Origin: Deltaproteobacteria bacterium
Lineage (GTDB): Bacteria; Myxococcota_A; UBA796; GCA-2862545
DNA: 64,000 bases
Reading direction: 5' to 3'
NCBI GenBank assembly: GCA_016938035.1
Contig: JAFGVK010000043.1
Coordinates: 1-64,000, forward strand
Shown: positions 9,974 to 22,189 of the stretch, piece after piece
Layout of the letters: every line of letters starts with the position of its first letter
Numbering within the stretch: position 1 is the first letter of the stretch
The notes under the pieces: model-generated
What the model was told of the DNA's origin: nothing
What the model saw: the letters and a program-made list of their open reading frames with translations, nothing else
Database searches by the model: none
Position numbers and translations under genes: made by a program

Positions 9974-11506
9974 ATGATTTCCTCGAAGCCCCTGGCCGCT
10001 GGTACAGGCGTCTTGATCGCCCTGATGGGGGCGCTAATCGGTGGCTCTGCCCTCGGCGGCGACGACAACCCCAGGGCCCACCTGCCCGCCCACGCTCCAA
10101 AGACGGACCACGCCGCGCTGATCCAGGGCGCCCTGGAGAACGGCGAAGACGTCACCAGGATGTGCCTGGAGTGCCACCCCAACGCCTCAAAGGAGATGAT
10201 GGCCACCGACCACTTTACCTGGGGGGGGCAGCCGGTGCAGGTCCCCGGCAGCGACGAGGTGGTCCACATCGGCAAGCGCAACGCGCTCAACAACTTCTGC
10301 ATCGGCGTGCAGCCGAACATGGGGATGTGCGTCAAGTGTCACGTCGGCCAGGGCTGGACGGATGAGGCCCATTGGGAGCCCACCGAGGCCTCGGTGGACT
10401 GCCTGGTCTGCCACGCCGACACCAAGACCTACTGGAAGACGATCGGCGGCTGGCCGGCGGCTGACGTGGACCTGGTGGCCGCGGCCAAGTCGGTCGGTCC
10501 CACCAACCGAGACAACTGCGGGCAGTGCCACGCCACCGGCGGCGGCGGCGACGGCGTCAAGCACGGCGATCTGGACAACACCCTGCGGAACCCCAACGCG
10601 CGCATCGACGCCCACATGGGCAAGCACGGGATGCTCTGCACCGACTGCCACCAGACGGCGCACCACCAGATCCCCGGGATGAACAACGGCACCAGCATGG
10701 CGCAGTCCTCCCACGTCCAGTGCGAGGACTGTCACGATCCCCGCCCGCACCGGGACGATCGCCTGAACAACCACACCGCCACCGTGGCGTGCGAGACCTG
10801 CCACATCCCCCACATGGCGGTGGACACCCCCACCAAGATGAGCTGGGACTGGTCTACCGCGGGCAGGGACGACATCCCGGAGGATCACTACACCTATATG
10901 AAGATCAAGGGCAGCTTCGTCTACGAGACCATGGCCGTCCCTCAATACAAGTGGTACAACGGGACAAATGGACGCCACCTTGCGGGCGACATCATCGACC
11001 CCAGCGGCGGTCCCGTCCAGATGAACCCCCTGTGCGGAAACATCGCCGACCCGCAGGCGCGCATCTGGCCGGTCAAGGTCCACCGCTCCAACCAGCCCTA
11101 CGACACGGTCCACAACTACCTGTTGATCCCCAAGACCTGGGGCGAGGGCGGGTTCTGGACGGAGTTTGACTGGCAGAAGGCCCTCACCCTGGGCGAGTTG
11201 ACCTCCGGCTTGGCGTACAGCGGCCACTATGACTTCACCTGGACCGAGATGGACTGGCCCCTGGCCCACATGGTCCAGACCGAGGAGAAGGCGCTCCAGT
11301 GCACCGACTGCCACGCCGAGGGCGGCAGGATGGACTGGGAGGCGCTCGGCTACGACGGTGATCCCGCGATCCTCGGGGGACGCCTCCAGAATGACCTCGT
11401 CGCCCACCCCGAGCAGCTCCGCGAGGCGCTGGAGGGCAGCGCGCCCAAGTACAAGACCTACGACGACGGCCCCGTTCCCACCGTCTGTGAAGAGGTGACC
11501 CGATGA
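9974..11506 (+). CDS. octahaem c-type cytochrome, tetrathionate reductase (OTR) family (510 aa)
   Basis: Periplasmic octahaem cytochrome. A signal peptide (residues 1-28) is followed by eight CXXCH sites: CLECH, CVKCH, CLVCH, CGQCH, CTDCH, CEDCH, CETCH and CTDCH. The first lies at residue 64 and is preceded by 'DHAALIQGALENGEDVTRMCLECH'-type spacing typical of the Shewanella OTR family. A long haem-poor stretch of about 140 residues separates haems 7 and 8, again as in OTR. Known members reduce tetrathionate, nitrite and hydroxylamine in vitro; the natural substrate is unsettled. It heads an operon of five genes with ATGA overlaps, encoding a second multihaem cytochrome, a cytochrome b and sulfur-type transporters. 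That context favours a sulfur compound as substrate (inference). AGGAG ribosome binding site. Confidence 0.92.
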   Translation: MISSKPLAAGTGVLIALMGALIGGSALGGDDNPRAHLPAHAPKTDHAALIQGALENGEDVTRMCLECHPNASKEMMATDHFTWGGQPVQVPGSDEVVHIGKRNALNNFCIGVQPNMGMCVKCHVGQGWTDEAHWEPTEASVDCLVCHADTKTYWKTIGGWPAADVDLVAAAKSVGPTNRDNCGQCHATGGGGDGVKHGDLDNTLRNPNARIDAHMGKHGMLCTDCHQTAHHQIPGMNNGTSMAQSSHVQCEDCHDPRPHRDDRLNNHTATVACETCHIPHMAVDTPTKMSWDWSTAGRDDIPEDHYTYMKIKGSFVYETMAVPQYKWYNGTNGRHLAGDIIDPSGGPVQMNPLCGNIADPQARIWPVKVHRSNQPYDTVHNYLLIPKTWGEGGFWTEFDWQKALTLGELTSGLAYSGHYDFTWTEMDWPLAHMVQTEEKALQCTDCHAEGGRMDWEALGYDGDPAILGGRLQNDLVAHPEQLREALEGSAPKYKTYDDGPVPTVCEEVTR

Positions 11507-13407
11507 TCGCCCTGCTCCTCGCGACCGGCGCCCTCGCCGGGATGCACCCGCCCGTCACCCTGCTGGGGGCCGACTGGCTGCCGGTGGTCGAGACCGGCGC
11601 GCCGGTGTCCACCGCGGCGACCTGTGGTCAGTGCCACGACGCCGCGTGGATCGCCGGGCACTCCTACCACTCCGCGATGGACTTCGACCGACAGGTCGAG
11701 GCGGGCACCGCCCCCTCCGGGCGCCCGTGGGACCTCGGGACCGGCCCGGGCACCCGGTGGAGCCCCCTGCTGGACGAGGTGGTGCCGGGCATGGACGCGG
11801 CCACCCTCCAGGAGCGCCTCGGCCCCTATTTGGTGGGTGGCGGCTCCATCTCCCCCGACATGGAGATGAACTGCTTCCTCTGCCACACCCCCTCCCCCGA
11901 CAACGCGGCGCGGGTCGAGGACATCCAGGGCGGGCACCCAGAGTGGGCGCTGACCGCCACCCTCCAGGGCCTGGGCCTGGTCCACCACACCCCGCCAGAC
12001 CAGGTGGGCGTGGAGGTCACCGGCGAGGGCGAGGGCACCCTCACCACCGGCATCTGGTCCTACAACCTCGATCGCTTCTCGCCTGAGGGAGCGGTCGACC
12101 TGCAGCTGGGACAGCCCACCTCCGAGAATTGTGGCGTCTGCCACGGCACGGTCCACAGCGGCAACGACGCGCTGCTCCTCGACTTCGGGGGCCGCGGCAC
12201 CCGCTCCGCGGGCCGGGTGTTCTCGCCCCAGAGGATCGCCTCCTCCTCGCTCAACGTGGCCGGCAAGGAGGCCCTCGGGCGCGCCTGGGACGTGCACGCC
12301 GAGCGGATGCTGGAGTGCACCGACTGTCACTACTCGCTCAACCACCCCGCCTACTACCAGGAGTCCGACGACACCCGGCCCGCGTACCTCCGCTTTGACG
12401 GTCGGAAGCTGGCTCTGAGCGACTACCTGTACCGCCCCTCCCACGACTTCGCCAAGGGGTACTCGGCCCAGGGCCACCTCGCAGAGGGACGGGACGGATC
12501 GATGCGCGCGTGCGCCGACTGCCATGACGCCTCGGCGACCCACGAGTGGCTGCCCTACGCCGACCAGCACTTCGCGGCGCTCGCCTGCGAGTCCTGCCAC
12601 ATCCCTGAGGTCTACTCCCCCGCCCTGTCGTCGGTGGACCTGTCCCTGGTCACTGCCGCCGGCGAGCCGGTAGTCCACTGGCGCGGAGTGGAGGGCATCC
12701 CCACCGATCCCGCCTCGCTGGTCACCGGCTGGAGGCCGGTGCTCCTCCCGCGGGTGGACCGGCCGGGCGCTCGGCCCAAGCTCACCCCTCACAACCTGAT
12801 CACCTCGGTGAGCTGGATCGCTGGCGAGCCGGCGAAGCCCATCGACAGCCTGGCGCTCTCGGAGGCGCTGCTCCAGGGGCAGGGCTACCACCCCGACGTG
12901 CTCAAGGCGCTCGACGCGGACGGCAGCGGCTCCCTCAGTGAGGGCGAGCTGGTGCTGGACACAGAGGCCAAGGTCTCCGCGGTCCAAGCCCGCTTGACCG
13001 CGGCAGGCTTCGTCAACCCCACGCTGCACACCGAGGTGGAGGCCTTCGGGATCCACCACGGCGTCACCGGGAGCGGCTACGCCACCAAAGAGTGCACCAC
13101 CTGCCACGCAGAGGACGGTCGCACCGGAGTGGGCTTCCTCCTCGCCGCTGCGCTCCCGCCCGGGATGACCCCCGCGCTGGTGGGGGACAGCAACGTGCTC
13201 CTCGACGGTGAGGTCACCCGCACCGACGATGGCGCGGTGATCTACCAGTCCAACCTGTTCCGCTCAGGCTTCTATCTGTTCGGCCAGGACAGGCTCTCTC
13301 TGCTCGACATCTTCGGGCTGCTCACCGTGGTGGGCTCGGTGTTTGGTCTCGCCGGTCACGGCGGATTGCGGTACCTCGGCGCCCTCAAGAGGAGGAAGCG
13401 GTCATGA
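11503..13407 (+). CDS. heptahaem c-type cytochrome with EF-hand and C-terminal anchor (634 aa)
   Basis: Signal peptide at residues 1-13 and seven CXXCH motifs (CGQCH, CFLCH, CGVCH, CTDCH, CADCH, CESCH, CTTCH). Between haems 6 and 7, near residue 467, lies DADGSGSLSEGE, a good EF-hand calcium loop followed by a second acidic helix. The C-terminus has one hydrophobic segment (LLDIFGLLTVVGSVFGLAG) and a basic tail, so the protein should be periplasmic with a C-terminal membrane anchor, placing it to pass electrons between the cytochrome b and the octahaem enzyme. Its ATG overlaps the upstream stop (ATGA), and its last codons overlap the cytochrome b start in the same way. I know no named family with this whole architecture. 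Confidence 0.9.
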   Translation: MIALLLATGALAGMHPPVTLLGADWLPVVETGAPVSTAATCGQCHDAAWIAGHSYHSAMDFDRQVEAGTAPSGRPWDLGTGPGTRWSPLLDEVVPGMDAATLQERLGPYLVGGGSISPDMEMNCFLCHTPSPDNAARVEDIQGGHPEWALTATLQGLGLVHHTPPDQVGVEVTGEGEGTLTTGIWSYNLDRFSPEGAVDLQLGQPTSENCGVCHGTVHSGNDALLLDFGGRGTRSAGRVFSPQRIASSSLNVAGKEALGRAWDVHAERMLECTDCHYSLNHPAYYQESDDTRPAYLRFDGRKLALSDYLYRPSHDFAKGYSAQGHLAEGRDGSMRACADCHDASATHEWLPYADQHFAALACESCHIPEVYSPALSSVDLSLVTAAGEPVVHWRGVEGIPTDPASLVTGWRPVLLPRVDRPGARPKLTPHNLITSVSWIAGEPAKPIDSLALSEALLQGQGYHPDVLKALDADGSGSLSEGELVLDTEAKVSAVQARLTAAGFVNPTLHTEVEAFGIHHGVTGSGYATKECTTCHAEDGRTGVGFLLAAALPPGMTPALVGDSNVLLDGEVTRTDDGAVIYQSNLFRSGFYLFGQDRLSLLDIFGLLTVVGSVFGLAGHGGLRYLGALKRRKRS

Positions 13408-14054
13408 GCAAGAACATGGTCTACATGTACACGCCGTGGGAGCGGATCTGGCACTGGACCCAGGCTGGCTCCATCCTGACCCTGCTCGCCTCAGGGCTGG
13501 TCGTCCACATGCCGAGGACCTTCAGCTTCATCCCCTTCGACGCGGCGGTGGACGTCCACAACGCGGTCGCGATCCTGCTGCTGGTGAACGCGGTCTTCGG
13601 CTTCACCTACTACGTGATCTCCGGGAGCATCAAACAGTACTTCCCGAGGCACCTCGGCGACCACCTGCGCGATTTCTACGCGCAGGCGCTCTACTACGGC
13701 TACGGGATCTTCATGGGGGCCCCGCACCCGGTCCAGAAGACCGCGGAGCGCCGCTTCAACCCGATCCAGATGACCACCTACGCCAGCGTCATGATGGGCC
13801 TGCTGCCCATGCAGCTGGCGACCGGGGTGGCGCTCTGGCTCGCGCCCTACTTCCCCGAGACCCTTGGGGCCCCCGGCGCGATCGGCGTCCTCGCCCTGCT
13901 CCACACCGTCGGGGCGTGGAGCTTCGGGGCCTTCGTCCTGGGTCATGTCTACATGACCACCACCGGCCACACGGTGATGCAGAACATCGTCACGATGATC
14001 ACTGGCTGGGAAGAAGAAGAGCACCACGACGATCACAAGGAGGTGCAGGCATGA
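13404..14054 (+). CDS. cytochrome b561/thiosulfate-reductase-type membrane subunit (216 aa)
   Basis: Di-haem cytochrome b-type quinol dehydrogenase subunit resembling PhsC, formate dehydrogenase gamma or Ni-hydrogenase cytochrome b. Four or more membrane segments are visible (about 18-38, 52-75, 125-150, 170-195). Candidate haem ligands are the His in ERIWHWTQ, VHNAVA, LLHTVG and FVLGHVYM. The C-terminus is acidic and His-rich (EEEEHHDDHKE). Likely role: take electrons from menaquinol/ubiquinol, or deliver them, across the inner membrane to or from the periplasmic cytochromes encoded upstream. It overlaps both neighbours by ATGA, implying fixed stoichiometry. Confidence 0.9.
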   Translation: MSKNMVYMYTPWERIWHWTQAGSILTLLASGLVVHMPRTFSFIPFDAAVDVHNAVAILLLVNAVFGFTYYVISGSIKQYFPRHLGDHLRDFYAQALYYGYGIFMGAPHPVQKTAERRFNPIQMTTYASVMMGLLPMQLATGVALWLAPYFPETLGAPGAIGVLALLHTVGAWSFGAFVLGHVYMTTTGHTVMQNIVTMITGWEEEEHHDDHKEVQA

Positions 14055-14572
14055 GCGCGCCCACCAAGGACTGGAATCCGTACGTCGCGGGGGCGACCCT
14101 GGGCTTCGTGCTGTTCCTCGCCTTCGCCCTCACCGGGAACGGGATCGGCGGCTCGGGGATCATCCTCAAGCTCAGCACCGTGCTCTCCCAGTGGCTCAAC
14201 ACCGAGGGGATGATGCAGAACGCCTTCTGGGCGGGATCCGTGGACACCCCACTGCTGAGCCTGCTGAACCACCGCCTCGTATGGGGCGGGGTGGGCCTCT
14301 TCCTTGGAGGCTTGCTCGCCGGCCTGCTCCGCGGCGACGGCTTCAAGATGGTGGTGCTGCGCGGGCCGAACATCTCGGTTGGCGCCAGGATCACCCTCGC
14401 CCTGGTAGGCGGGACCATCACCGGCTGGGCCGCTCGCGTGGGCCGCGGCTGTACCTCGGGTCAGGCGCTCTCTGGGGGCAGCCTGCTCTCGGTGGGCAGC
14501 TGGGCCTTCATGCTCTCCGTCTTTGCTGGCGCCTACGCTCTCGCGTATTTCCTGCGCCGCCAGTGGAGGTAG
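14051..14572 (+). CDS. YeeE/YedE (TsuA-like) transporter, N-terminal half (173 aa)
   Basis: A membrane protein with about four helices and the conserved RGCTSGQALSGG loop holding Cys134, one of the signature cysteines of the YeeE/YedE (TsuA) thiosulfate-transporter family. Complete family members are about 330-350 residues with two such halves. This gene carries only the first half and the next gene carries the second (GGWCPGT), so the transporter is split. An ATGA overlap with the cytochrome b gene and a 3-bp gap to the following gene show strict co-expression. The transported species is inferred to be thiosulfate or another sulfane-sulfur anion. Confidence 0.87.
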   Translation: MSAPTKDWNPYVAGATLGFVLFLAFALTGNGIGGSGIILKLSTVLSQWLNTEGMMQNAFWAGSVDTPLLSLLNHRLVWGGVGLFLGGLLAGLLRGDGFKMVVLRGPNISVGARITLALVGGTITGWAARVGRGCTSGQALSGGSLLSVGSWAFMLSVFAGAYALAYFLRRQWR

Positions 14573-14575
14573 CCG

Positions 14576-15799
14576 ATGTTCCCCATGTTCTCTGCGATGG
14601 GTCTGACCCAGAACATCCTCTTCCTCATCCTGGGCGCGAGCTTCGGCTTCGCCATGGAGCGGGGGGGCTTCTCGGACTCCCGAAACCTCGCCGCTCAGTT
14701 CTACTTCGGTGATATGCGGGTCTTTAAGGTGATGTTCTCGGCGATCGTGGTGGCCTCCACCCTGATCGTCGCGGGCACCAGCCTGGGCCTCATCAACATG
14801 GACCTGGTGTGGGTCAACCCCACCTTCCTCGGCACCGCCATCATCGGCGGCGCCGCGCTGGGCTTTGGCTTCATCATCGGCGGCTGGTGCCCTGGCACCT
14901 CCCTGGTGGGGATCGCCACCGGCAAGCTCGACGCCCTGGTGTTCGTGGCCGGCCTGTTCCTGGGGACCTTCCTCTTCGGCGCGACGGTCCCGTCGTTCTG
15001 GGACGCCTACAACACCTGGGGCGCGATGGGGCAGTTTACCCTGATGGACCTGACGGGGATGAGCGCGGGGGTGGTGGTCATCTCGGTGATCGTCGTCGCA
15101 GCCATCGGCTTCTTCCTGACCGAGAAGGTCGAGGACATGATGGGCGAGCGTGCCCCGCTCACGGCTCGGCAGCTCCAGGTGGTGCTCGGCGGCACAGGGG
15201 GACTGATCCTCCTGGCGCTGGTGTCCATCGGCCTGGGCGCTCCGACGGTAGAGGATCGGATCAACCTGCAGTCCACCGAACTGGACGCCACGCTGGCAGC
15301 CCGCGAGGTGCAGATGGATCCCGGTGAGGTCCTCAAGCTGATGAGCGAATTCAAGGTCCCGGTGCGGATCGTAGACGTGCGCTCCCCCTCCGACTACAAC
15401 ATGTTCCACCTCAAGGACGCCGAGCCTCTCCCCCCGGTGGAGGAGCAGGGCGCTTGGCTGATGGGCATGAGGGCCAAGTCGGTGGTGATCCTCATCGGCA
15501 ACGACGAGGACGCCGCGACCCACGCCTGGAAGGAGCTGATGGTGCAGAAGGCGGGTAAGCCGCTCTTCACCCCCTACATCCTCGCTGGCGGAATGAACGG
15601 GTGGGTCGAGGCCTACGGGCACCACACCACTGGGCTCATCCACCAGGAGGCCGGTGAGGATCAGTTCCACTACCGCTTCAAGGCGCCGGTCGGCTCCAAC
15701 GTGGACCTGGCGAGGCCTGACCTCCACCACGCCCCTGAGCGCGAGTACGTGCCCAAGTTCAAGCAGGCCAAGTCCGGCGGCGGCGGCGGCTGCGGCTGA
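14576..15799 (+). CDS. YeeE/YedE transporter second half fused to Cys-less rhodanese-like domain (407 aa)
   Basis: Residues 1-225 form five or six membrane helices with the family loop GGWCPGTSLVG (Cys105). Residues about 250-350 form a rhodanese-like domain (IVDVRSPSDYNMFHL ... YILAGGMNGWVE), but the active-site loop that should read Cys-x-x-G-x-R reads ILIGNDEDAAT, with no Cys. The protein ends in KSGGGGGCG, with Cys406 one residue from the C-terminus. I infer a cytosolic sulfur-binding or docking domain on the transporter rather than an active sulfurtransferase; the Gly-rich Cys tail could be a mobile thiol that carries sulfur. Last gene of the operon; a strong hairpin follows at 15820. 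Confidence 0.87.
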   Translation: MFPMFSAMGLTQNILFLILGASFGFAMERGGFSDSRNLAAQFYFGDMRVFKVMFSAIVVASTLIVAGTSLGLINMDLVWVNPTFLGTAIIGGAALGFGFIIGGWCPGTSLVGIATGKLDALVFVAGLFLGTFLFGATVPSFWDAYNTWGAMGQFTLMDLTGMSAGVVVISVIVVAAIGFFLTEKVEDMMGERAPLTARQLQVVLGGTGGLILLALVSIGLGAPTVEDRINLQSTELDATLAAREVQMDPGEVLKLMSEFKVPVRIVDVRSPSDYNMFHLKDAEPLPPVEEQGAWLMGMRAKSVVILIGNDEDAATHAWKELMVQKAGKPLFTPYILAGGMNGWVEAYGHHTTGLIHQEAGEDQFHYRFKAPVGSNVDLARPDLHHAPEREYVPKFKQAKSGGGGGCG

Positions 15800-15819
15800 T
15801 CGACCCATCCACCTGCGGT

Positions 15820-15851
15820 GAGGCCGCGTCCGGGAGACCGGGCGCGGCCTC
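15820..15851. terminator. bidirectional terminator of the cytochrome/transporter operon
   Basis: A stem of about 14 bp (GAGGCCGCGTCCGG / CCGGGCGCGGCCTC, one G-T pair) with a GAGA loop, followed on the plus strand by TTGGCT. It lies 20 bp after the operon's last stop and 5 bp before the convergent thioredoxin-fold gene's stop, so it can serve both. Confidence 0.75.
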
Positions 15852-15856
15852 TTGGC

Positions 15857-16309
15857 TCAGACGTCGTAGGGGTTGACGTGGCGGTCGAGGAGCCGCTTGA
15901 GCTCCTCATAGGTCCTGAAGCCCTGCTTGCGCGCCTTGATGTCCCGGTCCTTGACCAGGTAGAGCTGCGGCACTGAGACAATGCCGAATTGCTCGTGCTT
16001 GGCGGCGTTGCGATAGGCGTCGATCTCCAGCACCATCAGGGTGCCCGTGAATTCCGCCCCCAACCGCCTGAGCACCCCCTGGAGGCGCTCGCTGCCCTCG
16101 GAGCCCTCCGCCACAAAGGCCAGCAGGAGGGGCACCGGAACCTTCTCCATCAGGCGCTCCACCTCCTCGTCCGGGAGCCGCATCGGCGCGCCAGAGGTGT
16201 CGAGATCCTCCTTGCACCTGCCGCAGCTAGGGGCGAGCTGGATGCGCTCCGAGGGAACGCGGTTCATCCCGCCACAGTGGACGCAGCGGTAGTAGCACTT
16301 GTAGCCCAT
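15857..16309 (-). CDS. zinc-ribbon/thioredoxin-fold protein without a CxxC active site (150 aa)
   Basis: The N-terminus has a zinc ribbon (CVHCGG ... CGRCKEDLD), as in TrxC-type thioredoxin 2. It is followed by a thioredoxin fold ending in the cis-proline motif VPQLYLV and 'GFRTYEELKRLLD'. At the place where thioredoxins have W-C-G-P-C this protein reads FVAEGSEGSE, so it cannot do dithiol chemistry. The start at 16309 has GGAGG eleven bases upstream and is preferred over a longer frame that would add 54 arbitrary residues. It may be a chaperone-like or metal-binding thioredoxin relative. It faces the sulfur-type operon but is on the opposite strand. Confidence 0.8.
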   Translation of the reverse strand: MGYKCYYRCVHCGGMNRVPSERIQLAPSCGRCKEDLDTSGAPMRLPDEEVERLMEKVPVPLLLAFVAEGSEGSERLQGVLRRLGAEFTGTLMVLEIDAYRNAAKHEQFGIVSVPQLYLVKDRDIKARKQGFRTYEELKRLLDRHVNPYDV

Positions 16310-16389
16310 GACAGCCTCCGACCGACATTGTGAACAACAGACAAGCGCGAGACAAGGGCTGAGGTACCATCGGCCCGCAAGGAGACCCC

Positions 16390-17583
16390 ATGACCGCGCG
16401 AATCGTAGTCCTCTCTGGCGTCCGCACCCCGATCGGGGACATCGGCGGGAGCCTCTCCCCTGTGCTGGCACTGGATCTGGCCACCCACGCCATCCGCGGA
16501 GCGATCGCAGCCGCGGACCTGGATCCGTCGGTCGTGGAGTACACCGACTTCGGCTGGGTCGCGCAGGACCCGCGCGCCACCAACCTCGCCCGGATGGCGG
16601 CGGAGCAGGCCGGGGTCCCCTACACCGCGCCGGGCACGACCTGGCACGAGAACTGTAACTCCGGTGGCGCCGCGATCCACGGCCTGGCGCGGCGCCTGGC
16701 GCTGGGCGAGCAGCAGGTCGGTGTGGCGGGGGGCGTGGAGTCCATGTCCAACGTGGGGCGCTACCTGTTCGGGGGCCGCACCGGCGGGCAGCTCTACGGC
16801 GATCTGAAGCTGGTGGACGGCCTGTTCGGGGCCCTCACCGATCCCCTGGTGGGCGGCGGGGAGCTCGCGGGGCTGATCACCGAGCGGATGGTGGACCGCT
16901 ACGGGCTGTCACGCGAGGAGCAGGACGACATCGCCTTCCGCTCCCACCAGGCCGCGCTGAGGGCCTGGGATGCCGGACACTTCCAGGGGCACGTGCTGTC
17001 GGTGGAGGTGCCCACCAAGCGCGGCAAGAGCACCCTGGTGACACGCGACGAGCACCCCCGCCCCCTGGACCGGGCGCAGTTCGCCCAGGCTCGCCCCTAC
17101 TTCAAGCCCGACGGCGGTACCATCACCGGTCTCAACGCCTCCAGCCTGAACGACGGCGCTGCCGCGCTGGTGCTGTCCACCGCCGAGTGGGCTGAGGCGC
17201 ACGGGATCCACCCCCTCGCCGAGCTGGTGGCCTGGCGCAACGTGGGCGTGGAGCGCGCCTACATGGGCGAGGGCGCGTTCAAAGTCATCCCGCCGCTGCT
17301 CGCACGGGCGGGTGTCTCTCTCCAAGACGTCGACCTCTTCGAGCTCAACGAGGCCTTCGCCGCGGTGCTCGCCGCGGCCTACCGCCACCTCCCCGGGCTC
17401 TCGCCCGACAAGGTGAACCTGTGGGGGTCTGGCATCTCCCTTGGGCACCCGGTCGGCGCCACAGGGGCCCGACAGGTGGTGGACATGGTTCACATGCTCG
17501 GGCACCGCGATCAGGAGCTCGGCGTCACCACGCGGTGCGTGGGCGGGGGCATCGGCGGTGGTGAGCTCATCCGACGACTCTGA
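16390..17583 (+). CDS. thiolase / acetyl-CoA C-acyltransferase (397 aa)
   Basis: Full-length thiolase. The nucleophilic Cys89 sits in WHENCNSGGAA, His353 in GISLGHPVGATG and the second catalytic Cys383 in TRCVGGGIG. The NEAFAA segment of the family is also present. Reaction: reversible condensation or thiolysis of acyl-CoA and acetyl-CoA, in fatty-acid breakdown or acetoacetyl-CoA formation. No hydratase or dehydrogenase partner is adjacent, so the pathway is open. AGGAGA precedes the ATG. Confidence 0.95.
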   Translation: MTARIVVLSGVRTPIGDIGGSLSPVLALDLATHAIRGAIAAADLDPSVVEYTDFGWVAQDPRATNLARMAAEQAGVPYTAPGTTWHENCNSGGAAIHGLARRLALGEQQVGVAGGVESMSNVGRYLFGGRTGGQLYGDLKLVDGLFGALTDPLVGGGELAGLITERMVDRYGLSREEQDDIAFRSHQAALRAWDAGHFQGHVLSVEVPTKRGKSTLVTRDEHPRPLDRAQFAQARPYFKPDGGTITGLNASSLNDGAAALVLSTAEWAEAHGIHPLAELVAWRNVGVERAYMGEGAFKVIPPLLARAGVSLQDVDLFELNEAFAAVLAAAYRHLPGLSPDKVNLWGSGISLGHPVGATGARQVVDMVHMLGHRDQELGVTTRCVGGGIGGGELIRRL

Positions 17584-19662: not shown

Positions 19663-20748
19663 TTAGTAGGACTCGGGCTCGTTCAGCATCTCGTCGGACA
19701 CCGGGTGCCGGAAGACCCAGCTCACCCACACCTGGTAGCCAATGACGACGGGCACCGCGACGGCCGCCACACCGAGCATGATCTGCATGGTGAGGAGGCT
19801 GGAGGCGGTCCCCGAGGCGGTGAGGGAGTGGACGATGTTCTGCCCATCCCAGGTGGCCGCGGTGTCGAGGGTGGAGCGCATGGTGTAGGGGAACATGCCC
19901 GCCACTCCGAAGCCCGCCGCCATCGCGATGGTCAGCGCGGAGCCGGCCCAGGCGAGCCAGTAGCTCTTCTTGAGCTGCATCCCGATGTTGAGGAGCAGAC
20001 CGCCCACGGCGAGGGCCGGGAAGATCAGCGTCCACAGGCGCGCGAAGTGCGCGGTCCACAGCTCGGTGTAGGCGAAGGACAGGCCCAGGAAGGCCACCGC
20101 CAGCACCAGCGAGGCCACCCAGGCCTGCTTGGCCACCGCGGCGAGGCGGTCGCGGAGACCGCCCTCCTCGGCGTGGACGACGCCCCACAGCGCCCCGTGC
20201 TCGACGAACAGGGCGACGAAGAGCAGCCCGCCGGCGAGGCCGTAGGGGTTCAGCAGCGTGAACAGGTTCCCCTGGAGGTTCCACTGGGCGAACTTGTCGT
20301 TGTCGAGCATCTCAAACGGGACGCCCATGAACAGGTTCGCGAAGAACACCCCGAAGAGCAGCGCCAGCGCGAAGGAGCTGACGGTGTGGACCCAGTCCCA
20401 CAGCGAGCGCCAGCCGTCCGAGTCCACCTTGCCGCGGAACTCGAAGGTGGCCCCGCGGAGGATGAGCATGAACAGCACCAGCATCAGCGGGGTGTAGAGG
20501 GCCGAGAACATCGCGGCGTAGGTCTTGGGCAGCGCGGCGAAGGTCACGCCGCCCGCGGTGAGCAGCCACACCTCGTTGCCGTCCCAGAACGGGCCCTGCG
20601 CGTTGTAGATGACGCGCTTGTCCCTGTCTGACTTGGACACGAGGGGGAGGAGGGTCCCCAACCCCAGGTCGTACCCATCGGTGATGAAATACACCGCCCA
20701 GAGCACGCCCCAGAGGATGAACCACACATTGGCGAGAATCTCTTCCAT
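19663..20748 (-). CDS. cydB: cytochrome bd ubiquinol oxidase subunit II (361 aa)
   Basis: Polytopic CydB with nine or so hydrophobic segments. The N-terminus 'FILWGVLWAVYFITDGYDLGLG' and 'NEVWLLTAGG' followed by 'FAALPKTYA' are family hallmarks. With CydA it forms the quinol:O2 oxidoreductase that reduces oxygen at low concentration and without proton pumping. The ATG lies 3 bp beyond the cydA stop, with GGAGG inside the end of cydA, so the two are co-translated. The small subunit CydX was not recognised next to it. Confidence 0.96.
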   Translation of the reverse strand: MEEILANVWFILWGVLWAVYFITDGYDLGLGTLLPLVSKSDRDKRVIYNAQGPFWDGNEVWLLTAGGVTFAALPKTYAAMFSALYTPLMLVLFMLILRGATFEFRGKVDSDGWRSLWDWVHTVSSFALALLFGVFFANLFMGVPFEMLDNDKFAQWNLQGNLFTLLNPYGLAGGLLFVALFVEHGALWGVVHAEEGGLRDRLAAVAKQAWVASLVLAVAFLGLSFAYTELWTAHFARLWTLIFPALAVGGLLLNIGMQLKKSYWLAWAGSALTIAMAAGFGVAGMFPYTMRSTLDTAATWDGQNIVHSLTASGTASSLLTMQIMLGVAAVAVPVVIGYQVWVSWVFRHPVSDEMLNEPESY

Positions 20749-20751
20749 AGC

Positions 20752-22062
20752 CTAGGCCTCCTTCACTGCGTCGGGGCCCTTGCGCGCGTACTTCGCGAGC
20801 AGGTACCAGTCGACGGCGCCGAGCAGGGAGTAGATGAGCACGAAGCCGACGAGGGTTGAGCCGACCTGGCCCACCGACAGGTGGGAGACAGCGTCCTCAG
20901 TGCGGAGGAGGTTGGTGACGATCCAGGGCTGACGCCCCAGCTCGGTGACGGTCCACCCAAGCAGGATGGCGATCCAGGGGATCGGGATCATGTAGAGCAG
21001 CACCTTGAGGAGCAACGGGTTCTCCTCGGGGTTCTTGCGCTTCCACACCGCCCAGGCGCCCACCAGGATCATCAGCGCCCCCAGCCCGACCATCAGCCGG
21101 AAGGAGAGGTAGACCGGCAGGACGGGGGGCCGATCCTCGACCGGCACCTCGTTGAGGCCCTTGACCACGAAGTTGGGATCCAGCCCGGCCATGAGCGAGA
21201 GGAGGCTCGGCACGGGCAGCGCCTCGAAGGTGTTGCCCTCCTGAGTCGGCCAGGCCAGCAGATACATCGGCGCGTGATCCGTGGTCTCCCAGTGGGCCTC
21301 CATCGCCGCCAGCTTCATCGGCTGCTCGTGCGCGACGTGCTCACCGTGGAAGTGGCCCATCCCCGCGACCCCCAGCGAGAAGAGCAGGGCAAAGGCCGCG
21401 CCCACCCGGAAGGACTTCTGGAAGAAGGTCACCTCGTTCTTCCTGAGCAGGTGATAGGCCGAGATGCCCAACACCAAGAAGCCACCGAGCGCCCACGAGG
21501 CGAACTCCACGTGCAGCCACTGGACCCAGGCCGAGGGCTGAAGCACCGCGAAGAAGTCCGTGAGCTCGTAGCGGTTCTTGACCTCGTTGAACTGGTAGCC
21601 CACCGGGTGCTGCATCCAACCGCTCGCCATCAGGATCCAGAAGGCGGAGAGGTTGGTGCCCAGCGCCACCATGATCCCGGTGAAGAGGTGCATCTTCTTG
21701 GAGAGCTTGTTCCACCCAAAGGTCCAGAACCCGATGAAGGTGGACTCCATGAAGAAGGCCACCGTCGCCTCGACGGCGAGCAGCGGCCCAAAGATGTCAC
21801 CTACCGCGTGTGAGTAGCCCGACCAGTTGGTTCCAAACTGGAACTCCTGGGTGATACCGGTCACTACGCCCACCGCGAAGTTGATAAGAAACAGCTTGCC
21901 CCAGAACTGCGCCATCCGCTTGTAGTCCTGGTCATCCGTCTTCACATAGAGAAACTCCATGTAGGCGACGATCAGGGACATCCCCAGTGTCACGGGGACA
22001 AAGAGGAAATGGAAGTAGATGGTGGCGGCGAACTGCAGGCGGGAGAGTATGAGTACGTCCAC
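20752..22062 (-). CDS. cydA: cytochrome bd ubiquinol oxidase subunit I (436 aa)
   Basis: CydA carries haems b558, b595 and d. The N-terminal 'LSRLQFAATIYFHFLFVPVTLGMS' contains the haem His, and GRQPWIV near the C-terminal third is the conserved GRxPW-type segment. At 436 residues it lacks the long insertion of the Q-loop found in the E. coli enzyme (522 residues), so it belongs to the short-Q-loop class. The start is taken at GTG 22062, five bases after GGAGG; earlier in-frame residues do not look like CydA. An AT-rich region upstream probably holds the promoter. Confidence 0.95.
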   Translation of the reverse strand: MDVLILSRLQFAATIYFHFLFVPVTLGMSLIVAYMEFLYVKTDDQDYKRMAQFWGKLFLINFAVGVVTGITQEFQFGTNWSGYSHAVGDIFGPLLAVEATVAFFMESTFIGFWTFGWNKLSKKMHLFTGIMVALGTNLSAFWILMASGWMQHPVGYQFNEVKNRYELTDFFAVLQPSAWVQWLHVEFASWALGGFLVLGISAYHLLRKNEVTFFQKSFRVGAAFALLFSLGVAGMGHFHGEHVAHEQPMKLAAMEAHWETTDHAPMYLLAWPTQEGNTFEALPVPSLLSLMAGLDPNFVVKGLNEVPVEDRPPVLPVYLSFRLMVGLGALMILVGAWAVWKRKNPEENPLLLKVLLYMIPIPWIAILLGWTVTELGRQPWIVTNLLRTEDAVSHLSVGQVGSTLVGFVLIYSLLGAVDWYLLAKYARKGPDAVKEA

Positions 22063-22189
22063 ATGCGCCTCCTGTGTTGAAGATGTCCAACGAGGATGAG
22101 GATCGATCCTGTCCCCAAGCGACGCCCTGATCGGGCGTTGAGTGGGCTTATGACACACCCTCCAGGCTCGTGCAGTAGCTCTCGTTACA

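Follow-up and report, generated by a model that had tools for sequence, protein, structure and literature searches.

An operon of multihaem cytochromes and a split YeeE/YedE channel with a cysteine or selenocysteine tail, and its possible role in periplasmic sulfur reduction and relay

Why should an octahaem cytochrome share an operon with a channel of a sulfur-transporting family, and do the two work together? The question is raised by five genes at positions 9974-15799 of the window, a stretch of 64,000 nucleotides (positions 1 to 64,000 of contig JAFGVK010000043.1) from a deltaproteobacterial genome assembly (GCA_016938035.1; 5.19 Mb, 89% complete, phylum Myxococcota). An original prediction, made from the DNA alone, had described these genes as a respiratory module in which sulfur uptake is coupled to electron transfer by periplasmic multihaem proteins. 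Its coordinates, reading frames, haem counts (eight and seven) and junctions (three ATGA overlaps and, as the fourth, a 3-bp gap) are all correct. The answer proposed here, to which we give about even odds (roughly 0.5), is that the operon specifies a periplasmic reductase driven by quinol and linked to a sulfur relay in the membrane. The features are as follows.

9974-11506, plus strand: OTR-family octahaem c-type cytochrome; 510 residues, signal peptide, eight CXXCH motifs; predicted periplasmic terminal reductase
11503-13407, plus strand: heptahaem c-type cytochrome; 634 residues, seven CXXCH motifs, one C-terminal helix (599-633); predicted electron conduit
13404-14054, plus strand: b561-type cytochrome b; 216 residues, PF01292; predicted dihaem quinol oxidase
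14051-14572, plus strand: C-terminal half of YeeE/YedE, PmpA-like; 173 residues, PF04143 positions 174-309, pore motif RGCTSGQ (Cys134)
14576-15799, plus strand: N-terminal half of YeeE/YedE, PmpB-like, with a rhodanese-like domain; PF04143 positions 3-186 and PF00581, pore motif GGWCPGT (Cys105)
15820-15856, no strand assigned: strong hairpin without a T-run, 3' of the operon

Relatives of the operon were collected by searching 284 genomes of Myxococcota with the heptahaem protein and the GTDB species genomes with an OTR alignment, and the DNA around each relative was scanned with profiles built in this analysis. All five genes, in the order OTR, heptahaem protein, cytochrome b, YeeE, YeeE, are found in 73 of the 88 related loci, and so the outcome that would have told against the original prediction, a gene order shared by no relative, is excluded. 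Fifteen loci are incomplete, and 13 of these end at a contig edge. Because the order recurs in so many loci, with contig ends accounting for the rest except two, the arrangement is not due to chance. Two loci depart from it in other ways. In one (L044), OTR and the heptahaem protein are fused into a single 15-haem protein and cytochrome b is absent; in the other, from a member of the Latescibacterota assembled as a single chromosome (L066), the OTR, heptahaem and cytochrome b genes lie together and the YeeE pair is about 750 kb away, still with its rhodanese-like domain and GGCG tail. By record label, the complete set is spread over at least 11 phyla: Myxococcota, Chloroflexota, Planctomycetota, Gemmatimonadota, Actinomycetota, KSB1, Neomarinimicrobiota, Eisenbacteria, Kiritimatiellota, Spirochaetota and Pseudomonadota. 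Almost all of the carrier records are metagenome assemblies; individual labels may therefore be mistaken, though it is hardly likely that all are. In one class of Chloroflexota the heptahaem marker was matched in 50 of 249 sampled genomes, with about 40 of the matches long and strong. Some Chloroflexota and one unclassified bacterium also encode 15- or 12-haem OTR-related proteins near the operon (L058:5014-7227, L087:5381-7696 and L085:1388-4666).

The first gene product belongs to the OTR family, with eight CXXCH motifs and 501 bits against TIGR04315 (cut-off 375), and it matches the OTR of Shewanella (SO_4144, PDB 1SP3) at E=3.9e-128 and 48% identity. A structure of OTR has reportedly been available since 2004. 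Lys153, the catalytic lysine, and Cys64 of 1SP3 correspond to K196 and C109 of the window protein, and both are invariant in all 89 aligned sequences. OTR, in which haem 2 is catalytic and ligated by lysine, is still described as an enzyme whose function is cryptic (PMC11024163). In a quick, midpoint-rooted tree of 105 OTRs, the YeeE-linked sequences form one clade (96 in the Shimodaira-Hasegawa-like approximate likelihood ratio test), with the Shewanella OTR outside it; the sole locus scored as lacking YeeE inside the clade (L162) sits at a contig end. OTR copies beyond the clade are accompanied by cytochrome b alone or by neither partner. Among 18 gammaproteobacterial OTR neighbourhoods, a b561-type cytochrome b stands directly 3' of OTR in 16, whereas the YeeE halves and the heptahaem protein are found in none. 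The plain pair of OTR and cytochrome b is also known from Thermosulfurimonas dismutans (PMC4911364), and a second OTR of the window genome, on another contig (C64, L157:1966-4209), belongs to such a pair without YeeE.

Within the clade, four Myxococcota loci (L158-L161) carry OTR and both YeeE genes and then the gene for a nonahaem protein whose b561-like match is weak; the heptahaem protein and a separate cytochrome b are both absent. Since OTR and the YeeE pair stay where the nonahaem protein replaces the other two, these gene contents indicate that they are the fixed core of the system and that the electron supply is exchangeable. The order conserved across phyla, the separate clade of YeeE-linked OTRs and the retention of the YeeE pair even where it is unlinked all argue that the operon's parts very probably act together. 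To this extent the module originally proposed stands; its electron path and its link to sulfur are matters that we infer from the properties of the individual proteins.

The heptahaem protein reaches the cut-off of no NCBIfam model. Its AlphaFold model (predicted local distance difference test score, pLDDT, 84.6) has a single significant fold match in the PDB, and this is OTR 1SP3 (E 7.4e-8). In a profile comparison, five of its haem sites align with OTR haems 3-7 (probability 98.9), and the spacing of its first and last sites is like that of OTR haems 1 and 8; this leaves haem 2 as the one most likely missing. The lysine motif of OTR is gone as well, and the protein appears to be an OTR paralogue that lacks the catalytic haem 2 together with its lysine and would serve as an electron conduit. 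MmcA of Methanosarcina is similar in being a heptahaem relative of OTR that has also lost catalytic haem 2 (PMC11024163) and its lysine and is a proposed electron conduit. MmcA lies in an rnf operon, whereas the window protein has its own membrane helix and its relatives are often fused to cytochrome b. With 36.6 bits against the MmcA family model TIGR04314 (cut-off 250), the heptahaem protein would work like MmcA as a separate line and not as a member of that family. The cytochrome b, originally described as quinol-type, can be assigned more narrowly to PF01292 (81.9 bits; b561/Ni-hydrogenase type), and its His17, His52, His167 and His181 are kept at 97-100% in 80 relatives. Most relatives have the heptahaem protein and cytochrome b fused into one chain, an argument for direct electron transfer from one to the other.

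The two YeeE proteins are the only PF04143 matches in the window genome. Because one matches the second pseudo-repeat of that family and the other the first, each with its own pore cysteine, they are to be read as two halves of one channel with the gene order swapped. Cys134 of the C-terminal half is present in all 77 relatives (100%) and Cys105 of the N-terminal half in 73 of 74. Their counterparts in Spirochaeta thermophila YeeE, Cys293 and Cys91, are needed for that protein's function (PMC11582611, PMC11073785); the position of the third cysteine is occupied here by serine. PmpA/PmpB of Serratia and others are likewise two half-size YeeE proteins with equivalents of Cys293 and Cys91 and without the third cysteine (PMC11582611). 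Unlike PmpB, the N-terminal half of the window is about 400 residues long, with extra helices, a rhodanese-like domain free of cysteine and a Gly-Gly-Cys (or selenocysteine, Sec)-Gly tail, and the pair is encoded with multihaem cytochromes. TsuA-TsuB (YeeE-YeeD) shares the PF04143 family and the pore cysteines, but there TsuA is a single chain with the third cysteine and is adjacent to the TusA-family protein TsuB, whereas the window halves are split and no TusA or YeeD gene is found in the operon. A YedE-type permease is tied to sulfur metabolism also in the YTD-type cluster of sulfur disproportionators, where the partners are the cytoplasmic carriers TusA and DsrE (PMC5276818) and not periplasmic haem enzymes.

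A TusA-family protein is absent in 14 of 28 carrier genomes, that of the window included. Since half of the carriers tested lack it, a mechanism like that of TsuA-TsuB is improbable for the pair, and the original prediction is corrected on this point; its sulfur-anion-type transporter holds as to the family. Within the Myxococcota, TusA is found in 7 of 14 carriers and 77 of 270 other genomes (p=0.13), neither a significant enrichment nor a significant depletion.

In the AlphaFold model of the N-terminal half (pLDDT 85.9), six predicted long helices are followed by the rhodanese-like domain, which we place in the periplasm with moderate confidence. The domain is without cysteine in all 74 relatives, and a role as an active sulfurtransferase was rejected on this ground. 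The protein ends in a tail, GGGGGCG in the window (Cys406) and GGCG or close variants in relatives, with the tail cysteine kept in 65 of 74. In two relatives the tail reads GGG-UGA-G-stop where the others have GGG-C-G-stop:

L053:10181-11437 (Chloroflexota): YeeE-rhodanese gene with an in-frame UGA at the tail cysteine
L090:14544-15830 (Neomarinimicrobiota): YeeE-rhodanese gene with an in-frame UGA at the tail cysteine

The identity of 54% between the two proteins shows that the UGA has persisted through a long divergence. About 15 nucleotides after it, both genes have a GC-rich hairpin whose stems have changed and yet still pair, and both genomes contain SelB over the cut-off and a tRNA-Sec confirmed by ARAGORN. 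The tail of these two proteins is thus a probable selenoprotein form. Selenocysteine in place of cysteine usually marks a redox-active or nucleophilic residue. As this replacement is seen in two lineages, the tail very likely does chemistry, probably as a reactive thiol or selenol. A review from 2026 includes both PF04143 and TIGR04315 among the families with predicted selenoproteins; the PF04143 motif that it gives, GUxSG, is that of the pore and thus a different site from the tail. A UGA is found at the N-half pore cysteine as well (GGY-UGA-PGT), in another member of the Latescibacterota (L212:6357-7618, genome G288) whose rhodanese part is a separate open reading frame. In that genome no tRNA-Sec was found over the cut-off, the best candidate being a tRNA-Trp, and the codon may be selenocysteine, a sequencing error or the mark of a broken gene. 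Three other split YeeE pairs (L213, L214 and L215) have a similarly long second half and a GGGC-type tail with no multihaem gene of the operon alongside, so the GG-Cys tail seems to be wider than the OTR operon.

Regulators of the ArsR family are encoded directly upstream of the operon in about 40 loci. One example from Myxococcota has its best PDB matches in 6o8l and others, which we take to be SqrR structures, and shares the first SqrR cysteine. The idea that all of these neighbours are SqrR-type dithiol sensors was rejected: the first SqrR cysteine occurs in only a few of the Myxococcota proteins, where the second is displaced by about one helical turn, and most of the Chloroflexota proteins carry a different single cysteine. 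The pore cysteines, the rhodanese-like domain and the regulators that match SqrR best are what lead us to infer a link to sulfur.

Put together, these parts suggest the following route. Electrons would pass from quinol through the dihaem cytochrome b and the heptahaem conduit to the lysine-ligated haem 2 of OTR. There a sulfur compound containing an S-S or S-SO3 bond would be reduced; a polythionate, for instance tetrathionate, is the most plausible candidate. Both YeeE halves would contribute to a single channel, in which their two cysteines are in line. On its outer side, the catalytically dead rhodanese-like platform would carry the flexible tail, which would pick up the sulfur product of OTR and pass it on to the channel; the transport would most likely be inward. 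The electron path and the periplasmic side of the tail are drawn from the predicted properties of the proteins; the identity of the substrate and the direction of transport are assumed. Several points weigh against this proposal. The OTR of S. oneidensis reduces nitrite and hydroxylamine too. The topology of the tail comes from the six-helix model and the positive-inside rule, with the last two loops equally charged. In the carriers without TusA, the known import route would need another acceptor, and the window has no ArsR gene beside the operon. Import is preferred to export as a guess, and its one aid is that sirohaem sulfite and nitrite reductases are weakly depleted among Myxococcota carriers (3 of 14, against 160 of 270 others; p=0.01, uncorrected for kinship), which would fit a need for reduced sulfur from outside; the window's own family is mostly without these enzymes anyway, so kinship confounds the comparison. 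A more specific form of the proposal is put forward tentatively, as possible: redox-coupled import of sulfur (or selenium), in which quinol-fed OTR loads the periplasmic Cys/Sec tail of the split channel, so that reduction in respiration and product uptake would be a single process.

The same parts can be read for selenium, with OTR reducing selenite by quinol electrons and the YeeE pair importing the product for selenoprotein synthesis or detoxification. The best NCBIfam match of the C-terminal half is to the selenium protein YedE/FdhT, but at 32 bits against a cut-off of 350, and both selenium YedE models of NCBIfam remain far below their cut-offs. Of the 16 operon genomes tested, 14 have SelB over the cut-off, as do 2 of 14 control genomes, which do not stand for the base rate in comparable genomes without the operon; in G284 and G298, both with the operon, SelB is below the cut-off only. 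With no gene of selenocysteine synthesis recognised among the recurrent neighbours, and with some regulators resembling the persulfide sensor SqrR, this reading is unlikely in spite of the UGA tails in two lineages, though still a live rival. An outward direction seems to us about equally unlikely. Here the YeeE pair would export or present cytoplasmic sulfane sulfur or reducing equivalents, and OTR would clear the resulting persulfide or S-sulfonate from the tail with quinol electrons, as a disposal of reactive sulfur. The lack of the cytoplasmic acceptor TusA in half of the carriers, the ArsR-family genes (some of them SqrR-like) and a tail suited to a redox-cycled thiol or selenol all agree with it; against it, the characterised YeeE, SoxT and YedE proteins are importers (PMC11073785, PMC11582611), and the side of the membrane on which the tail lies is a prediction.

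Cytochromes of the b561 type can run in either direction, as in the cytochrome b of Ni-hydrogenases. The operon could on this general ground be oxidative, OTR and the cytochromes oxidising thiosulfate or sulfane sulfur and reducing quinone while the YeeE pair supplies or removes the substrate. The OTR activities on record are reductions, however, plain OTR-cytochrome b pairs have been read as reductases, and no Sox or TsdA gene was seen among the neighbours that recur, which makes this direction quite improbable. More improbable still is that OTR here is a nitrite or hydroxylamine reductase with the YeeE pair as linked but unrelated sulfur genes. It would follow the Shewanella enzyme, which reduces both compounds in vitro and interacts with STC (PMC4484225), but it leaves unexplained why OTR and the YeeE pair are kept where the electron modules are swapped, why the YeeE-linked OTRs are a separate clade and why the pair is conserved, with its Cys/Sec tail, over so many phyla.

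A search of open-licence papers found no description of the octahaem-heptahaem-YeeE gene set, which is not proof of novelty. A nearly identical and apparently undescribed set in this range of phyla points to an unstudied coupling of respiration to the handling of sulfur (or selenium), and the frequency in Chloroflexota suggests a possible importance in the sulfur cycling of bacteria outside the usual sulfur microbes. The association of a distinct OTR clade with a sulfur-anion channel and a Cys/Sec tail opens the cryptic role of OTR to testing, and the swapped electron modules (heptahaem protein plus cytochrome b, nonahaem protein, fusions) provide a natural series around a fixed core. If redox-coupled import is true, the operon would be a widespread and unnamed module with a Cys/Sec swinging arm.

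As to the surroundings of the operon, the upstream operator search returned one imperfect 12-nucleotide inverted pair with a 95-nucleotide gap and was uninformative. About 4 kb downstream, a CydA/CydB-like pair for a cytochrome bd oxidase was noted by eye (19663-22158, minus strand), with no sign of a link to the operon. The strong hairpin predicted at the operon end is real: region 15800-15875, after the last gene, folds with a minimum free energy of -43.9 kcal/mol (z = -3.7). As the T-run is absent, it is not a textbook intrinsic terminator. It may also serve the gene that converges on the operon end, which encodes a thioredoxin-like protein with a zinc-ribbon match (15857-16471, minus strand).

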